Positions 56,026-60,126 of a DNA stretch of 64,000 bases are shown piece after piece. Both the position numbers and the translations under genes were made by a program. The first letter of the stretch is position 1. The number at the start of each line of letters is the position of its first letter. This DNA comes from Gracilimonas sediminicola. Lineage in GTDB: Bacteria; Bacteroidota; Rhodothermia; Balneolales; Balneolaceae. The notes beneath the pieces are model-generated. The model was not told the DNA's origin, ran no database searches, and saw nothing but the letters and a program-made list of their open reading frames with translations. The stretch spans positions 569,124 through 633,123 of the forward strand of contig NZ_JANDBC010000002.1 of the NCBI RefSeq assembly GCF_024320785.1, written 5' to 3'.

Positions 56026-56075
56026 CTCAAAAAAATAACTTGCGCCTTCCGAATTCTACTCTTAACATTAGTGTA

Positions 56076-56153
56076 ATGAAATTTTTCCGACAAAATATTA
56101 TCAGCTCTTGTGCAACTATGTGTTGCATGTGTATGTGCATGGCGCAGACATAA
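56076..56153 (+). CDS. Met/Cys-rich leader peptide of the methionine operon
   Basis: A 25-codon ORF whose second half reads SSCATMCCMCMCMAQT: five Cys and four Met codons within 11 residues, ending 382 bases before metY. A random 25-codon ORF would hardly have this composition, and it lies exactly where a trp-type attenuator needs it: base-paired segment 1 sits just before the Cys/Met run and the stop codon overlaps segment 2. It would sense charged tRNA-Cys and tRNA-Met by ribosome stalling. There is no clear Shine-Dalgarno, which is usual in this lineage. Confidence 0.8.
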   Translation: MKFFRQNIISSCATMCCMCMCMAQT

Positions 56154-56217
56154 GGGCTGAGATTACGTAAATAAATTTACACGAGCCCTTTTGAATGCAA
56201 CTCAGAAGGGCTTTTTT
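56103..56217 (+). promoter_or_regulatory. Ribosome-stalling transcription attenuator (segments 1-4)
   Basis: Segment 1 is AGCTCTT (56103-56109), segment 2 AAGGGCT (56152-56158), segment 3 AGCCCTT (56184-56190), and segment 4 AAGGGCT (56206-56212) plus a T-run to 56217. Pairs 1:2 (one G-U), 2:3 and 3:4 are mutually exclusive. The 3:4 stem extends to 11 bp (56184-56194 with 56202-56212, one G-U) and is the terminator. The 2:3 antiterminator encloses a perfect GTAAAT-AA-ATTTAC hairpin (56167-56180). A ribosome at the leader stop codon would mask segment 2 and allow termination; stalling on Cys/Met codons would free it. Confidence 0.82.
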
Positions 56218-56258
56218 GTTGGATTATATTTTAATCGTTCTTTTACAACAGTTGCATT

Positions 56259-56383
56259 CTCATTAAGAAAGGTGGAGGGATCAGGTCCTTTGAAGCCTTG
56301 GCAACCGTCCCGACAATTTATTTGTCAGGAAAAGGTGCTACGTCCTGTCTGTCACATAAAATTTATGTGATGGAAAAGATGAG
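56259..56383 (+). promoter_or_regulatory. SAM-I (S-box) riboswitch aptamer
   Basis: The conserved core is present: GGTGGAGGGA, then CCTTTGAAGCC and GGCAACC, and later AAAGGTGC and CGTCCTG, in S-box order. P1 is CTCAT (56259-56263) with ATGAG (56379-56383). P4 is the TCACATAAA/TTTATGTGA hairpin. It should bind S-adenosylmethionine and repress metY expression through the terminator at 56410. Confidence 0.93.
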
Positions 56384-56409
56384 TTCGAACAGATATTGGT
56401 TTTGACATA

Positions 56410-56447
56410 AAGCCTCTTTCGGATTCATCTCTGAAAGAGGCTTTTTT
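56410..56447 (+). terminator. Riboswitch expression-platform terminator
   Basis: AAGCCTCTTTC at 56410-56420 pairs perfectly with GAAAGAGGCTT at 56433-56443, followed by Ts to 56447. The P1 3' strand AGATGAG (56377-56383) can pair with TTCATCT in this hairpin's loop (56424-56430, one G-U), a plausible switch when SAM is absent. Confidence 0.9.
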
Positions 56448-56489
56448 GGTTTTAAGGAGCCTCATCAGAGAGATGCAAAATCTTAATAG

Positions 56490-57863
<1,374 letters not shown>

Positions 57864-57982: not shown

Positions 57983-59029
57983 ATGAACAAAGACATCAAA
58001 ATCACAACCCTGAATAAAAGCTGGACGACTGAATCCGGCTATAGTTTTAGTCATGTAGATATTGCCTGGAAAAGCTGGGGGACTCTCAATAAAAGCAGAG
58101 ATAATGTTATCCTGATTTGTCATGCCCTGACCGGGCATGCCGCCGCCGATGAATGGTTCAGCGGGTTGTTCGACAAAGGGGGCATTCTCAATCCTGAAAA
58201 GCACTTTATTCTGTGCATCAATATACCGGGTAGCTGCTATGGTTCTACCGGCCCTGCTTCCATCAACCCAGAAACGGGAAAACCCTGGCAGGCAGATTTT
58301 CCCGACATCACCATTCGGGATATCGTCGCCTTCCAACAGCTTTTGCTGGATCACTGGGATATTCAGGGCATTGAATTAGTGATTGGCGGATCTTTAGGAG
58401 GAATGACGGCGCTCGAGTTTGCGATCATGGATGACCGGATTAAATCGGCCGCTTTGTTTGCAATGGGAAAATCTCACTCGCCCTGGGCCATCGGTATTAG
58501 CCAGGCGCAGCGAATGGCTATTCATGCTGATGAGCGCTGGAATAACGGTTTCTATGACCCCAAAAATCCACCGACCAAAGGACTCACCGCTGCCCGAGCC
58601 ATGGCGATGCTCACCTATCGAACCCCGGAGAACTATGCCCGAAAATTTGGACGAGAAGTTCACCCTGAAAAGAGAATTTTCCAGGTCGAATCATATCTCA
58701 ATTACCAGGGAGAAAAGCTGGCAGGCCGGTTTGATGCAAACTCTTACATCACCCTGTCAAAGGCGATGGACTCTCACGATGTATCCAGAGGCCGGGGGAG
58801 TTTTGAAGAAGTGCTTGGAGGTGTGCATCAACCGGTATTAATTGTTGGATTTGAAAGTGACAAATTATATCCACTCAGCGAACAACAAGAACTGGCAAAA
58901 CTGATCCCCAACAGCCGGCTTGCCGAGTTGAAATCTCCCTATGGCCACGATTCCTTTTTAATTGAATTTGATCAGTTGAACACTCAATTACACTCATTTT
59001 ATCACTCACTCACTGAAGTAAAACCATGA
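57983..59029 (+). CDS. metX: Homoserine O-acetyltransferase
   Basis: A 348-aa alpha/beta hydrolase-fold acyltransferase giving O-acetylhomoserine, the MetY substrate. The catalytic Ser is in GGSLGGMTALEF, the Asp in VGFESDKLYP and the His in PYGHDSFLIE; CHALTGHAAADEW is the typical oxyanion region. Acetyl rather than succinyl specificity follows from pairing with MetY and is inference. It overlaps hom by four bases (ATGA). Confidence 0.95.
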   Translation: MNKDIKITTLNKSWTTESGYSFSHVDIAWKSWGTLNKSRDNVILICHALTGHAAADEWFSGLFDKGGILNPEKHFILCINIPGSCYGSTGPASINPETGKPWQADFPDITIRDIVAFQQLLLDHWDIQGIELVIGGSLGGMTALEFAIMDDRIKSAALFAMGKSHSPWAIGISQAQRMAIHADERWNNGFYDPKNPPTKGLTAARAMAMLTYRTPENYARKFGREVHPEKRIFQVESYLNYQGEKLAGRFDANSYITLSKAMDSHDVSRGRGSFEEVLGGVHQPVLIVGFESDKLYPLSEQQELAKLIPNSRLAELKSPYGHDSFLIEFDQLNTQLHSFYHSLTEVKP

Positions 59030-60126
59030 CACTAACACTTAAGAAAACAACTACCGACACTCATCAAGAGCTTTCCGTACAAAGAAAGAACATAAACCTT
59101 TTCATTGCCGGTTTAGGCGCTGTGGGAGGCACCCTAACCAAACTCATCCGGCAGCTGGATCACTCACTTTATGAGCTGAATGTGATCGGCGTTTGCAACA
59201 GCAAATTCACCCAATGGAACCCGGATATGGAGCAGGTAATCAGTAAAAGCCGGCTGACCGATGGCGAGCCTACTGACTGGAACAGCATCCCCGTCGAACT
59301 GGTAAACAGGAGCGACGGCAACCTGATTTTTATCGATGCCACCGGAAGTGAAATCGTTGCCCAACAATTTCAATACCTGTTGGACAACGGCGTACATATC
59401 GCCACGCCCAGCAAGCGAGCTAATTCATTTAGCCAGGATTATTTTGATGGGTTGATCAATGCAAACAATTCAGGCCGGGCACAATACCGGTATGAAACAG
59501 CGGTAGGTGCCGGACTTCCTGTAATCAGCACCCTCAAAACCTTACTGAACAGTGGAGATGAAATCACGAAAATCACCGGAGTAGCTTCAGGAACCATGAC
59601 TTACCTGTTCACCCAATTACAGAATGGTGTTCCATTCAGTGAAGCGGTTAAAAAGGCTAAGGATGGCGGATATTCAGAGCCGGACCCAAGAGATGACCTT
59701 TCCGGCGAAGATGTGGCACGTAAATTCCTGATTCTGGCACGCACCAGTGGCTATAAATTTGAACGGGATCAAATCCGGGTGGATACCCTTGTTCCGGAAA
59801 AGCTGATTTCACTTTCTACAGAAGATTTTTTGCAACAATTACCCGAATACGATGGCCATTGGAAAAGTCGCAATGCACAGGCTATGGTCAACAACCGGAA
59901 GCTAAGATATGTGGGCACGTTTACACCGGATGGCATCAGCGTTGGCATTGAAGAGGTAAAGGGCGACTCTCCCCTTGGCGGATTGCAAGGAACAGATAAC
60001 CTCATTCAGATTTACACCAAACGATATAGCACCTCTCCCATTATTGTGCAGGGACCTGGAGCCGGACGAGAAGTAACCGCAGCCGGTGTATTAGGGGATA
60101 TTATTGATATTGCGGGGATTTTGTAA
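59026..60126 (+). CDS. hom: Homoserine dehydrogenase
   Basis: A 366-aa NAD(P)-dependent enzyme reducing aspartate semialdehyde to homoserine. The N-terminal Rossmann motif is AGLGAVGG, and the catalytic and substrate region includes YETAVGAGLPVISTL and GVASGTMTYLFTQL, with YSEPDPRDDLSGEDVARK as the signature. It resembles the dehydrogenase half of ThrA/MetL, without an aspartokinase or ACT domain. It completes a hom-metX-metY set that supplies homocysteine, and it abuts the RAYT gene exactly. Confidence 0.94.
   Translation: MTLTLKKTTTDTHQELSVQRKNINLFIAGLGAVGGTLTKLIRQLDHSLYELNVIGVCNSKFTQWNPDMEQVISKSRLTDGEPTDWNSIPVELVNRSDGNLIFIDATGSEIVAQQFQYLLDNGVHIATPSKRANSFSQDYFDGLINANNSGRAQYRYETAVGAGLPVISTLKTLLNSGDEITKITGVASGTMTYLFTQLQNGVPFSEAVKKAKDGGYSEPDPRDDLSGEDVARKFLILARTSGYKFERDQIRVDTLVPEKLISLSTEDFLQQLPEYDGHWKSRNAQAMVNNRKLRYVGTFTPDGISVGIEEVKGDSPLGGLQGTDNLIQIYTKRYSTSPIIVQGPGAGREVTAAGVLGDIIDIAGIL

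Follow-up and report, generated by a model that had tools for sequence, protein, structure and literature searches.

A probable Cys/Met leader-peptide attenuator in series with a SAM-I riboswitch upstream of metY-metX-hom in Gracilimonas sediminicola and its relatives

In Gracilimonas sediminicola, the genes metY, metX, and hom are preceded by a short open reading frame (ORF) rich in Cys and Met codons, which is followed, in this order, by an intrinsic terminator, a boxA-like site, a SAM-I riboswitch, and a second terminator. It is very probable that the leader element is a ribosome-mediated transcription attenuator that responds to the supply of Cys (and probably of Met) and acts in series with the riboswitch. 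This reading is based on the observed anatomy of the region, its conservation, the matched pairing of its RNA segments, and their geometry relative to a ribosome on the ORF. Judged by its sequence, the element is real and conserved; new is the Cys/Met attenuator in series with a SAM-I riboswitch, while leader-peptide attenuation as such is known. The window referred to below is the whole stretch of DNA that was analyzed, with a length of 64,000 nucleotides.

Anatomy of the metY upstream region

A first-pass annotation had described a 25-codon ORF with five Cys and four Met codons within 11 residues, four pairing segments followed by a U-run, and a stop codon overlapping segment 2. All of these features, the ORF as well as segments 1-4, were confirmed base by base (Table 1). 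The encoded peptide, MKFFRQNIISSCATMCCMCMCMAQT, contains five Cys and four internal Met codons, with CATMCCMCMCM as the 11-residue stretch. The pairings 1:2, 2:3, and 3:4 can all form from the segments at the positions listed; the 1:2 pairing includes one G-U pair, the 3:4 pairing extends to 12 bp (56183-56213, -16.8 kcal/mol), and the TAA stop codon shares two bases with segment 2. The region 56090-56225 folds with -47.4 kcal/mol (z -4.5), and 1 of 200 shuffles was at least as good. A chance ORF was rejected because shuffled sequences rarely or never reach the Cys or Cys+Met density of the leader: in the 200-nt region upstream of the riboswitch, an ORF with at least five Cys in 12 codons arose in 7 of 5000 dinucleotide shuffles, and the nine Cys+Met observed in 12 codons compare with a maximum of six in a second set of 5000. 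The sequence TGYTGYATGTGY occurs at three places in the genome; at the other two it lies inside long open frames and is read in another frame.

Table 1. Coordinates of the regulatory features and genes around the metY leader, numbered within the window
Feature	Position	Strand	Details
era	ends ~220 nt upstream		gene preceding the leader
Predicted promoter, TTGCGC-17 nt-TAACAT	56040..56068	+	sequence and conserved spacing
Leader peptide ORF, MKFFRQNIISSCATMCCMCMCMAQT	56076..56153	+	ATG 56076, TAA 56151-56153; 25 codons
Segment 1 (protector), agctctt	56103..56109	+	pairs with segment 2
Segment 2 (antiterminator 5' arm), aagggct	56152..56158	+	overlaps stop codon
Intrinsic terminator, segments 3 and 4 with U-run	56183..56217	+	-16.8 kcal/mol
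Segment 3 (terminator 5' arm core), agccctt	56184..56190	+	within intrinsic terminator
Segment 4 (terminator 3' arm core), aagggct	56206..56212	+	followed by U-run 56213-56217
boxA-like element, CGTTCTTTTACAA	56236..56248	+	NusB/NusE site by sequence only
SAM-I riboswitch aptamer (RF00162)	56257..56385	+	67.4 bits, gathering threshold 44.4
Intrinsic terminator of SAM-I expression platform	~56409..56447	+	15-bp stem into T6 run
metY, O-acetylhomoserine sulfhydrylase family	56535..57863	+	TIGR01326, 694 bits, cut-off 495
metX, homoserine O-acetyltransferase	57983..59029	+	NF001209, 362 bits, cut-off 331
hom, homoserine dehydrogenase-like	59026..60126	+	best model match 368 bits, below cut-off 726

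The SAM-I riboswitch and the second terminator (read from the fold of 56253-56460) had been missed by the first-pass annotation. As the riboswitch with its own terminator lies between the leader element and metY, metY-metX-hom stand behind two terminators in series. The earlier reading of a leader-peptide attenuator before these genes is supported, with the qualification that the leader is not the sole control, since a SAM-I aptamer follows in all 70 loci of the same order that were compared. A T box leader was rejected because the window has no Rfam T-box match; tRNA and SAM were the only families there to score at or above the gathering threshold. With regard to the genes themselves, the best match of hom is the C-terminal half of a bifunctional aspartate kinase/homoserine dehydrogenase model. 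A second SAM-I riboswitch of the genome (L172, C3:172618-172736) lies before a gene that, from its translated start, we take to be metH; no Cys leader or boxA was seen there on inspection by eye.

Conservation of the leader in the order

Among 57 relatives, a metY orthologue was found in 52, and five have distant matches only (G023, G024, G029, G041, and G047). Two orthologues were left out, one being split (G009) and one partial (G052), which gave 50 upstream regions (L001-L050); the addition of 20 of 25 further genomes of the same family (L071-L090) brought the set to 70 same-order loci. None of the loci L092-L103 enters any count. Nine of them come from genomes already among the 70, and L092 (Balneola sp.), L093 (Aliifodinibius salipaludis), and L103 (Balneolales bacterium) are the same as loci in that set. 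The loci are related (17 locus pairs have a 60-mer in common within their last 600 nt, and the 67 leaders described below comprise 64 distinct peptides), so that the conservation counts are not independent.

A SAM-I aptamer is located upstream of metY in 70/70 loci, and a Cys-rich ORF directly upstream of the aptamer was assigned in 67 of them, with none in L034, L035, and L050. At least two Cys are found in 67/67 of these leaders, at least three in 61/67, and an internal Met in 65/67. Since the leaders were picked for their Cys/Met content, with hand-assigned start codons (four being GTG or TTG), the fair tests are the blind counts. An ORF with at least three Cys in 12 codons was found in 61/70 loci, compared with 9.9% of shuffles and 4/70 on the reverse strand; with at least four Cys, the numbers are 37/70, 1.0%, and 0/70, respectively.

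It was also considered that the first terminator responds to translation in general, as under starvation or antibiotics, and to no particular amino acid. By geometry, segment 2 would be freed wherever the ribosome stalls, provided that this is well ahead of the ORF's end. There would be no reason for such a codon-neutral sensor to retain Cys codons, however, and in 23 overlapping close pairs 18 of the 27 changed Cys codons are synonymous, so we give this explanation next to no weight. The pattern of Cys residues bears on a further proposal, namely an arrest peptide or metal/redox sensor in which the nascent CCMCMCM would bind copper, zinc, or a thiol reagent and stall the ribosome, the signal then not being tRNA charging. 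The Cys/Met density does resemble that of soft-metal ligands, but the number, order, and spacing of the Cys residues vary widely (CCMCMCM in L001, CCCSMC in L019, SCTMRC in L049, and CSKQLCKQC in L038), and the genes under control serve sulfur amino acid metabolism and stand behind a SAM switch. A metal- or redox-sensing peptide is thus highly improbable.

The leader transcript is probably leaderless, starting at about the ATG at 56076. A TTG followed by 16-19 nt and TA at a fixed place before the ATG was found in 45 of the 67 leaders, as against 4.7% of mononucleotide shuffles, and in 34 of these 45 the TA is located 13 nt before the ATG; the spacing of a leaderless promoter is missing from 22/67. 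It is from this spacing that the transcription start is predicted at or next to the ATG.

The motif between the first terminator and the aptamer is conserved as well. CGTTCTTTTACAA differs by one mismatch from the boxA consensus GYTCTTTAANA, which was taken from PMC5725501 and had been derived for gamma-proteobacteria. The exact consensus is present in 21/70 same-order loci and, with at most one mismatch, in 39/70 (mononucleotide shuffles 0.4%, control region 0/69). A GTTCTTT-type motif lies within 32 nt of the aptamer in 67/70 loci (2.2% expected), including L034, L035, and L050 despite their having no leader, and GTTCTTT also occurs in 4/20 loci of other orders. Nus machinery is best known from rRNA. 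In the genome under study, the boxA-like sequences GTTCTTTATAA and GTTCTTTGACA lie behind the tRNA-Ile/Ala pair downstream of the 16S gene, and a looser motif, GTTCTTAGACA, was seen by eye before 16S. Through a boxA-like site placed between the two terminators, the Nus machinery would be involved as well; the motif might instead pair with AAAGA in the 3' strand of the aptamer.

A hairpin with a T-tract follows the ORF in 62/67 same-order leaders and is missing in five; L038, whose hairpin has no real U-tract, is counted among the 62 but is doubtful. Five loci of one genus (L027, L029, L031, L032, and L033) have a leader for which no intrinsic terminator was found, its stop codon being located 22-57 nt before the aptamer. 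In four of them (L027, L029, L032, and L033), a long helix near the aptamer is predicted to join the beginning of the ORF to its end. Separately, 20 of the loci L001-L050 (e.g., L004, L008, and L018) have a further open frame, 162-213 codons long, between the riboswitch and metY; the ten proteins of these frames that were printed look alike and resemble a CoA-binding-domain protein.

Segment pairing and ribosome placement

When segments were permuted among loci, the own 2:3 duplexes (mean energy -13.7) were stronger than the permuted ones (-11.0, sd 0.3), and the same was true of the 1:2 duplexes (-17.2 vs -14.8, sd 0.4), in both cases beyond all 60 permutations. The own 3:4 hairpins also exceeded the permuted ones (-17.9 vs -12.8, 40 permutations), a test that is biased by the selection of these hairpins for strength. 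Little follows from the fact that the 2:3 pairing reaches -8 or better in 62/62 loci, because permuted segments already average -11. In the terminator alignment, C-G is changed to T-A at one pair in 5/45 sequences; apart from this change, its columns were not used as covariation evidence because they are blurred by one-base shifts.

A narrow window for segment 2 missed pairings in the last codons of some leaders; the permutation results for 1:2 and 2:3 come from a wider window, still near the stop codon, and the search was therefore repeated over the whole leader with a shuffle control. The best partner of segment 3 had an energy of -13.7 kcal/mol, compared with -7.4 kcal/mol (sd 0.25) in shuffled leaders. 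The ribosome footprint was modelled from -15 to +14 nt. In 60/62 loci of the unconstrained search, at least 70% of segment 3's best partner would be covered by a ribosome that has reached the stop codon and would also lie 3' of one stalled at the first Cys codon; shuffled leaders show the same geometry in a mean of 17/62 (maximum 26). When segments were permuted among loci in the whole-leader search, the placement was kept in 57.8/62 on average, with an energy of only -11.1 (sd 0.26); placement survives permutation because the segments are alike across loci. With a ribosome at the last Cys codon, segment 2 stays accessible in only 44/62 geometries. In some genera, segment 2 lies within the last codons, the peptides ending in ..PHLQPED and ..EYTGG directly before the stop codon, which looks as if the peptide had been extended to carry segment 2.

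These results also bear on an alternative in which metY is regulated by the SAM-I riboswitch alone, the hairpin before it being the 3' terminator of era and the ORF fortuitous. Such an arrangement would agree with era ending ~220 nt upstream, with a complete aptamer, and with the 20 sampled loci of other orders, in which SAM-I precedes metY without a comparable leader. It does not account for a segment-3 partner at the stop codon of a Cys-rich ORF in 60/62 loci (shuffled mean 17), nor for own pairs that beat permuted ones. Furthermore, L035 and L050, which belong to one genus, keep the C-terminus of era upstream (by eye) and SAM-I downstream and have no leader, and a search of the 420 nt ahead of their aptamers gave no terminator. 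This argues for a terminator that is part of the leader element instead of the era transcript, and the reading as an era 3' terminator was rejected; control by SAM-I alone is very unlikely. The comparison of relatives, which the first-pass annotation had put forward as a check, upholds its reading of a leader-peptide attenuator: a Cys-rich leader is kept in 67/70 loci, its Cys changes are mainly synonymous (18/27), and the 1:2 and 2:3 pairings match within loci better than under permutation.

Proposed mechanism and sensed amino acids

In the proposed mechanism, the mRNA, probably leaderless, would start at the ATG of the leader ORF, and the leader would be translated. With ample charged Cys-tRNA (and probably Met-tRNA), the ribosome would reach the stop codon and cover segment 2, so that the 3:4 terminator would form and transcription would end near 56217. 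With charged Cys/Met-tRNA in short supply, the ribosome would stall in the Cys/Met run and mask segment 1; segment 2 would then pair with segment 3, no terminator would form, and the polymerase would pass the boxA-like site. It would subsequently enter the SAM-I riboswitch, whose terminator would form if SAM is high. Two terminators with separate signals would amount to AND logic, with metY-metX-hom expressed only under a shortage of charged Cys/Met-tRNA that coincides with low SAM. If true, a single leader RNA would join a translating ribosome (reading Cys/Met-tRNA) and a SAM aptamer to decide on homocysteine and methionine synthesis.

Cys is favoured as the dominant amino acid sensed, and Met is probably sensed too. 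The reverse, an attenuator that is real and chiefly Met-sensing with the Cys codons being secondary, is unlikely. Internal Met codons in 65/67 leaders would fit it, as would Met-dominated leaders elsewhere that have terminators and a pairing segment 2 (L118, L190, and L196) and Met-only ORFs in L125 (by eye) and L141; against it, each of the 67 leaders of the order has at least two Cys, and those of L031 and L038 contain Cys without internal Met.

The sulfur metabolism of the genome was examined from its proteins. No CysE (serine acetyltransferase) and no CysK/M match above cut-off was found in it. One protein (L217) matches the cysteate synthase model with 461.9 bits (cut-off 600) and the cystathionine beta-synthase (CBS) model with 449 bits (cut-off 510), both below cut-off; one cystathionine-gamma-synthase family protein scores above cut-off; and there are four strong Cys_Met_Meta_PP proteins, MetY included. 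Because CysE and CysK/M are missing from these matches and a CBS-like protein and a cystathionine-gamma-synthase family protein are present, cysteine may come from homocysteine (the product of MetY) or be made by MetY itself, as the name of the MetY family model covers both activities; we suggest this with caution. No such Cys/Met ORF was found upstream of the CBS-like gene (L217) or of one distant relative (L218).

Distribution beyond the order

From the other orders of the class, 20 of 39 metY matches were sampled. SAM-I precedes metY in 20/20 of these loci, and in the 330 nt that precede the aptamer none of the 20 has an ORF with more than four Cys+Met in 12 codons; an ORF with at least six was found in 56/70 same-order loci, compared with 0/20 in the other orders. 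Conservation of the leader over the whole class was rejected on these grounds. As four of the 20 loci have an ORF with three Cys in 12 codons (4.2% of shuffles), a weak or eroded Cys leader may be present in a few of them.

In the wider phylum, two sets were counted. Among the matches listed, the 68 named loci L104-L171, grouped according to their record titles, consist of 40 that were counted, 17 cyanobacterial loci, and 11 that were set aside as being too short or from other or uncertain phyla (L108, L109, L115, L129, L138, L146, L153, L154, L157, L161, and L165). The second set is a sample of 40 of 59 places in same-phylum genomes. ORFs with at least six Cys+Met in 12 codons lie no more than 450 nt from metY in 20/40 of the named Bacteroidota/Ignavibacteria loci among the matches listed and in 13/40 loci of the phylum sample, with none on the reverse strand in either set and 2/5900 in shuffles; the sets overlap by two, since L118/L197 and L134/L198 are the same contigs. 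The row for other orders was left out of this wider count, as it reached only 8-210 nt upstream of the aptamers. An ORF with at least six Cys+Met was found in 0/17 cyanobacterial loci, and a Nostoc candidate (L117, L124) was dropped because it lies ~850 nt upstream of metY. Since such ORFs precede metY elsewhere in the phylum, this kind of leader, as far as the codon runs indicate, is not confined to the lineage of the window.

Several arrangements can be distinguished. The order of the window (leader, terminator, SAM-I) recurs in L106 (labelled Ignavibacteria), L137 and L164 (Bacteroidetes bacterium), and L140 (bacterium BMS3Abin03), where segment 2 pairs with -7.1 to -15.7 kcal/mol, values that carry no permutation control. 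In L118 (Melioribacter), L190, L191, L196, and L197, two Met-rich leader ORFs stand in series before metY, and no SAM-I was found at threshold; L118 and L190 have a terminator and a pairing segment 2 for both leaders, and L196 has them for the first, the one examined. The terminator stem of L205 and L206 is quite unlike the others, and their segment 2 differs accordingly.

Bacteroidia such as Pontibacter and Rufibacter have the SAM-I aptamer ahead of a polycysteine ORF, which starts just behind it and ends ~90-240 nt before metY. There is no consistent terminator: the best hairpin with a T-tract reaches -10 kcal/mol or better in 5/17 loci and is absent in two, and Rho-dependent or translational control is possible. 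If the reading given below is true, SAM would gate translation of the cysteine-sensing ORF in these loci.

A few further ORFs were noted on the side. SAM-I immediately followed by an ORF that ends in a run of Cys (and Met) and then by metY, without a consistent intrinsic terminator, was observed in L114, L119, L120, L130, L132, L139, L142, L144, L145, L152, L155, L162, L166, L170, and L171. A Met-only short ORF (..TGMMMGRMSM..) lies upstream of metY in L125 (by eye) and L141, with no SAM-I at threshold. L104, L105, L215, and L216 share a similar short peptide (~LFYASRPV.EH.S.YF.GNFLCC) between SAM-I and metY that ends in Cys-Cys.

We lean toward the view that ribosome-based sensing of Cys/Met combined with SAM-I is a widespread logic for metY in Bacteroidota and Ignavibacteria. 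It would be realized in several arrangements: leader and then SAM-I (Balneolales and genomes such as L106, L137, L140, and L164), two leaders without SAM-I (the Melioribacter type), and SAM-I followed by a polycysteine ORF (Pontibacter, Rufibacter, Cesiribacter, and others), the last without a consistent intrinsic terminator. If true, the system would offer a testable AND gate together with a natural series of rearranged versions in which to study how such switches are built and swapped.

Comparison with known systems

Leader-peptide attenuation has long been established, the classical attenuators being those of the trp, his, thr, and ilv type. These share with the present element a short ORF with regulatory codons, segments 1-4, an intrinsic terminator, and a stop codon at segment 2. 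The element described here differs in its Cys and Met codons, in an mRNA that is probably leaderless, and in the riboswitch that follows. Mycobacterial leaderless polycysteine sORFs are reportedly cysteine-responsive attenuators (Canestrari 2020, cited in PMC13236596). As in the present case, the mycobacterial systems have a run of Cys codons in a short ORF before sulfur genes; they are reportedly leaderless, which is probable for the present mRNA. In the accessible portion of PMC1262725, Cys-run leader ORFs are predicted before the cys operons of mycobacteria (Actinobacteria), without conserved terminator hairpins; unlike in the present element, a Met run or a SAM riboswitch is not mentioned there.

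On the taxonomic side, PMC2965389 (2010), in the part available, describes leader-peptide systems as known only in Proteobacteria and Actinobacteria and adds Firmicutes. A survey of leader genes in Bacteroidetes and other phyla (PMC4833913) has, in its available text, no word beginning with "cys". Searches of an open-access library, from which subscription papers are largely missing, turned up, among the matches listed, neither a Cys/Met leader attenuator in this phylum nor one combined in series with SAM-I; the first-pass annotation knew of no described Cys/Met leader of this kind in the phylum. If true, classical attenuation would extend to cysteine in a phylum for which these searches yielded no such case.

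The closest counterparts of the series arrangement are RNA tandems. According to the available part of the review PMC9481103, T box(Met)/SAM-I tandems exist, some of them before metX and metY, with "A AND NOT B" or "NOT A AND B" logic; the main text of this review, in the form available, contains neither "peptide" nor "attenuat". Such tandems likewise place a sensor of charged tRNA in series with SAM-I before met genes, but their sensor is a tRNA-binding RNA, whereas here it would be the translating ribosome. The Xanthomonas SAM-I riboswitch also binds uncharged initiator tRNA (PMC7270179, available text, in which "leader peptide" and "uORF" do not occur). Like the present system, it integrates SAM and the Met-tRNA state at a met operon; unlike it, it does so in one translational expression platform. 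SAM-I (RF00162) is itself the second module of the leader described here, which differs from a SAM-I riboswitch on its own by the preceding independent attenuator and the boxA-like site.
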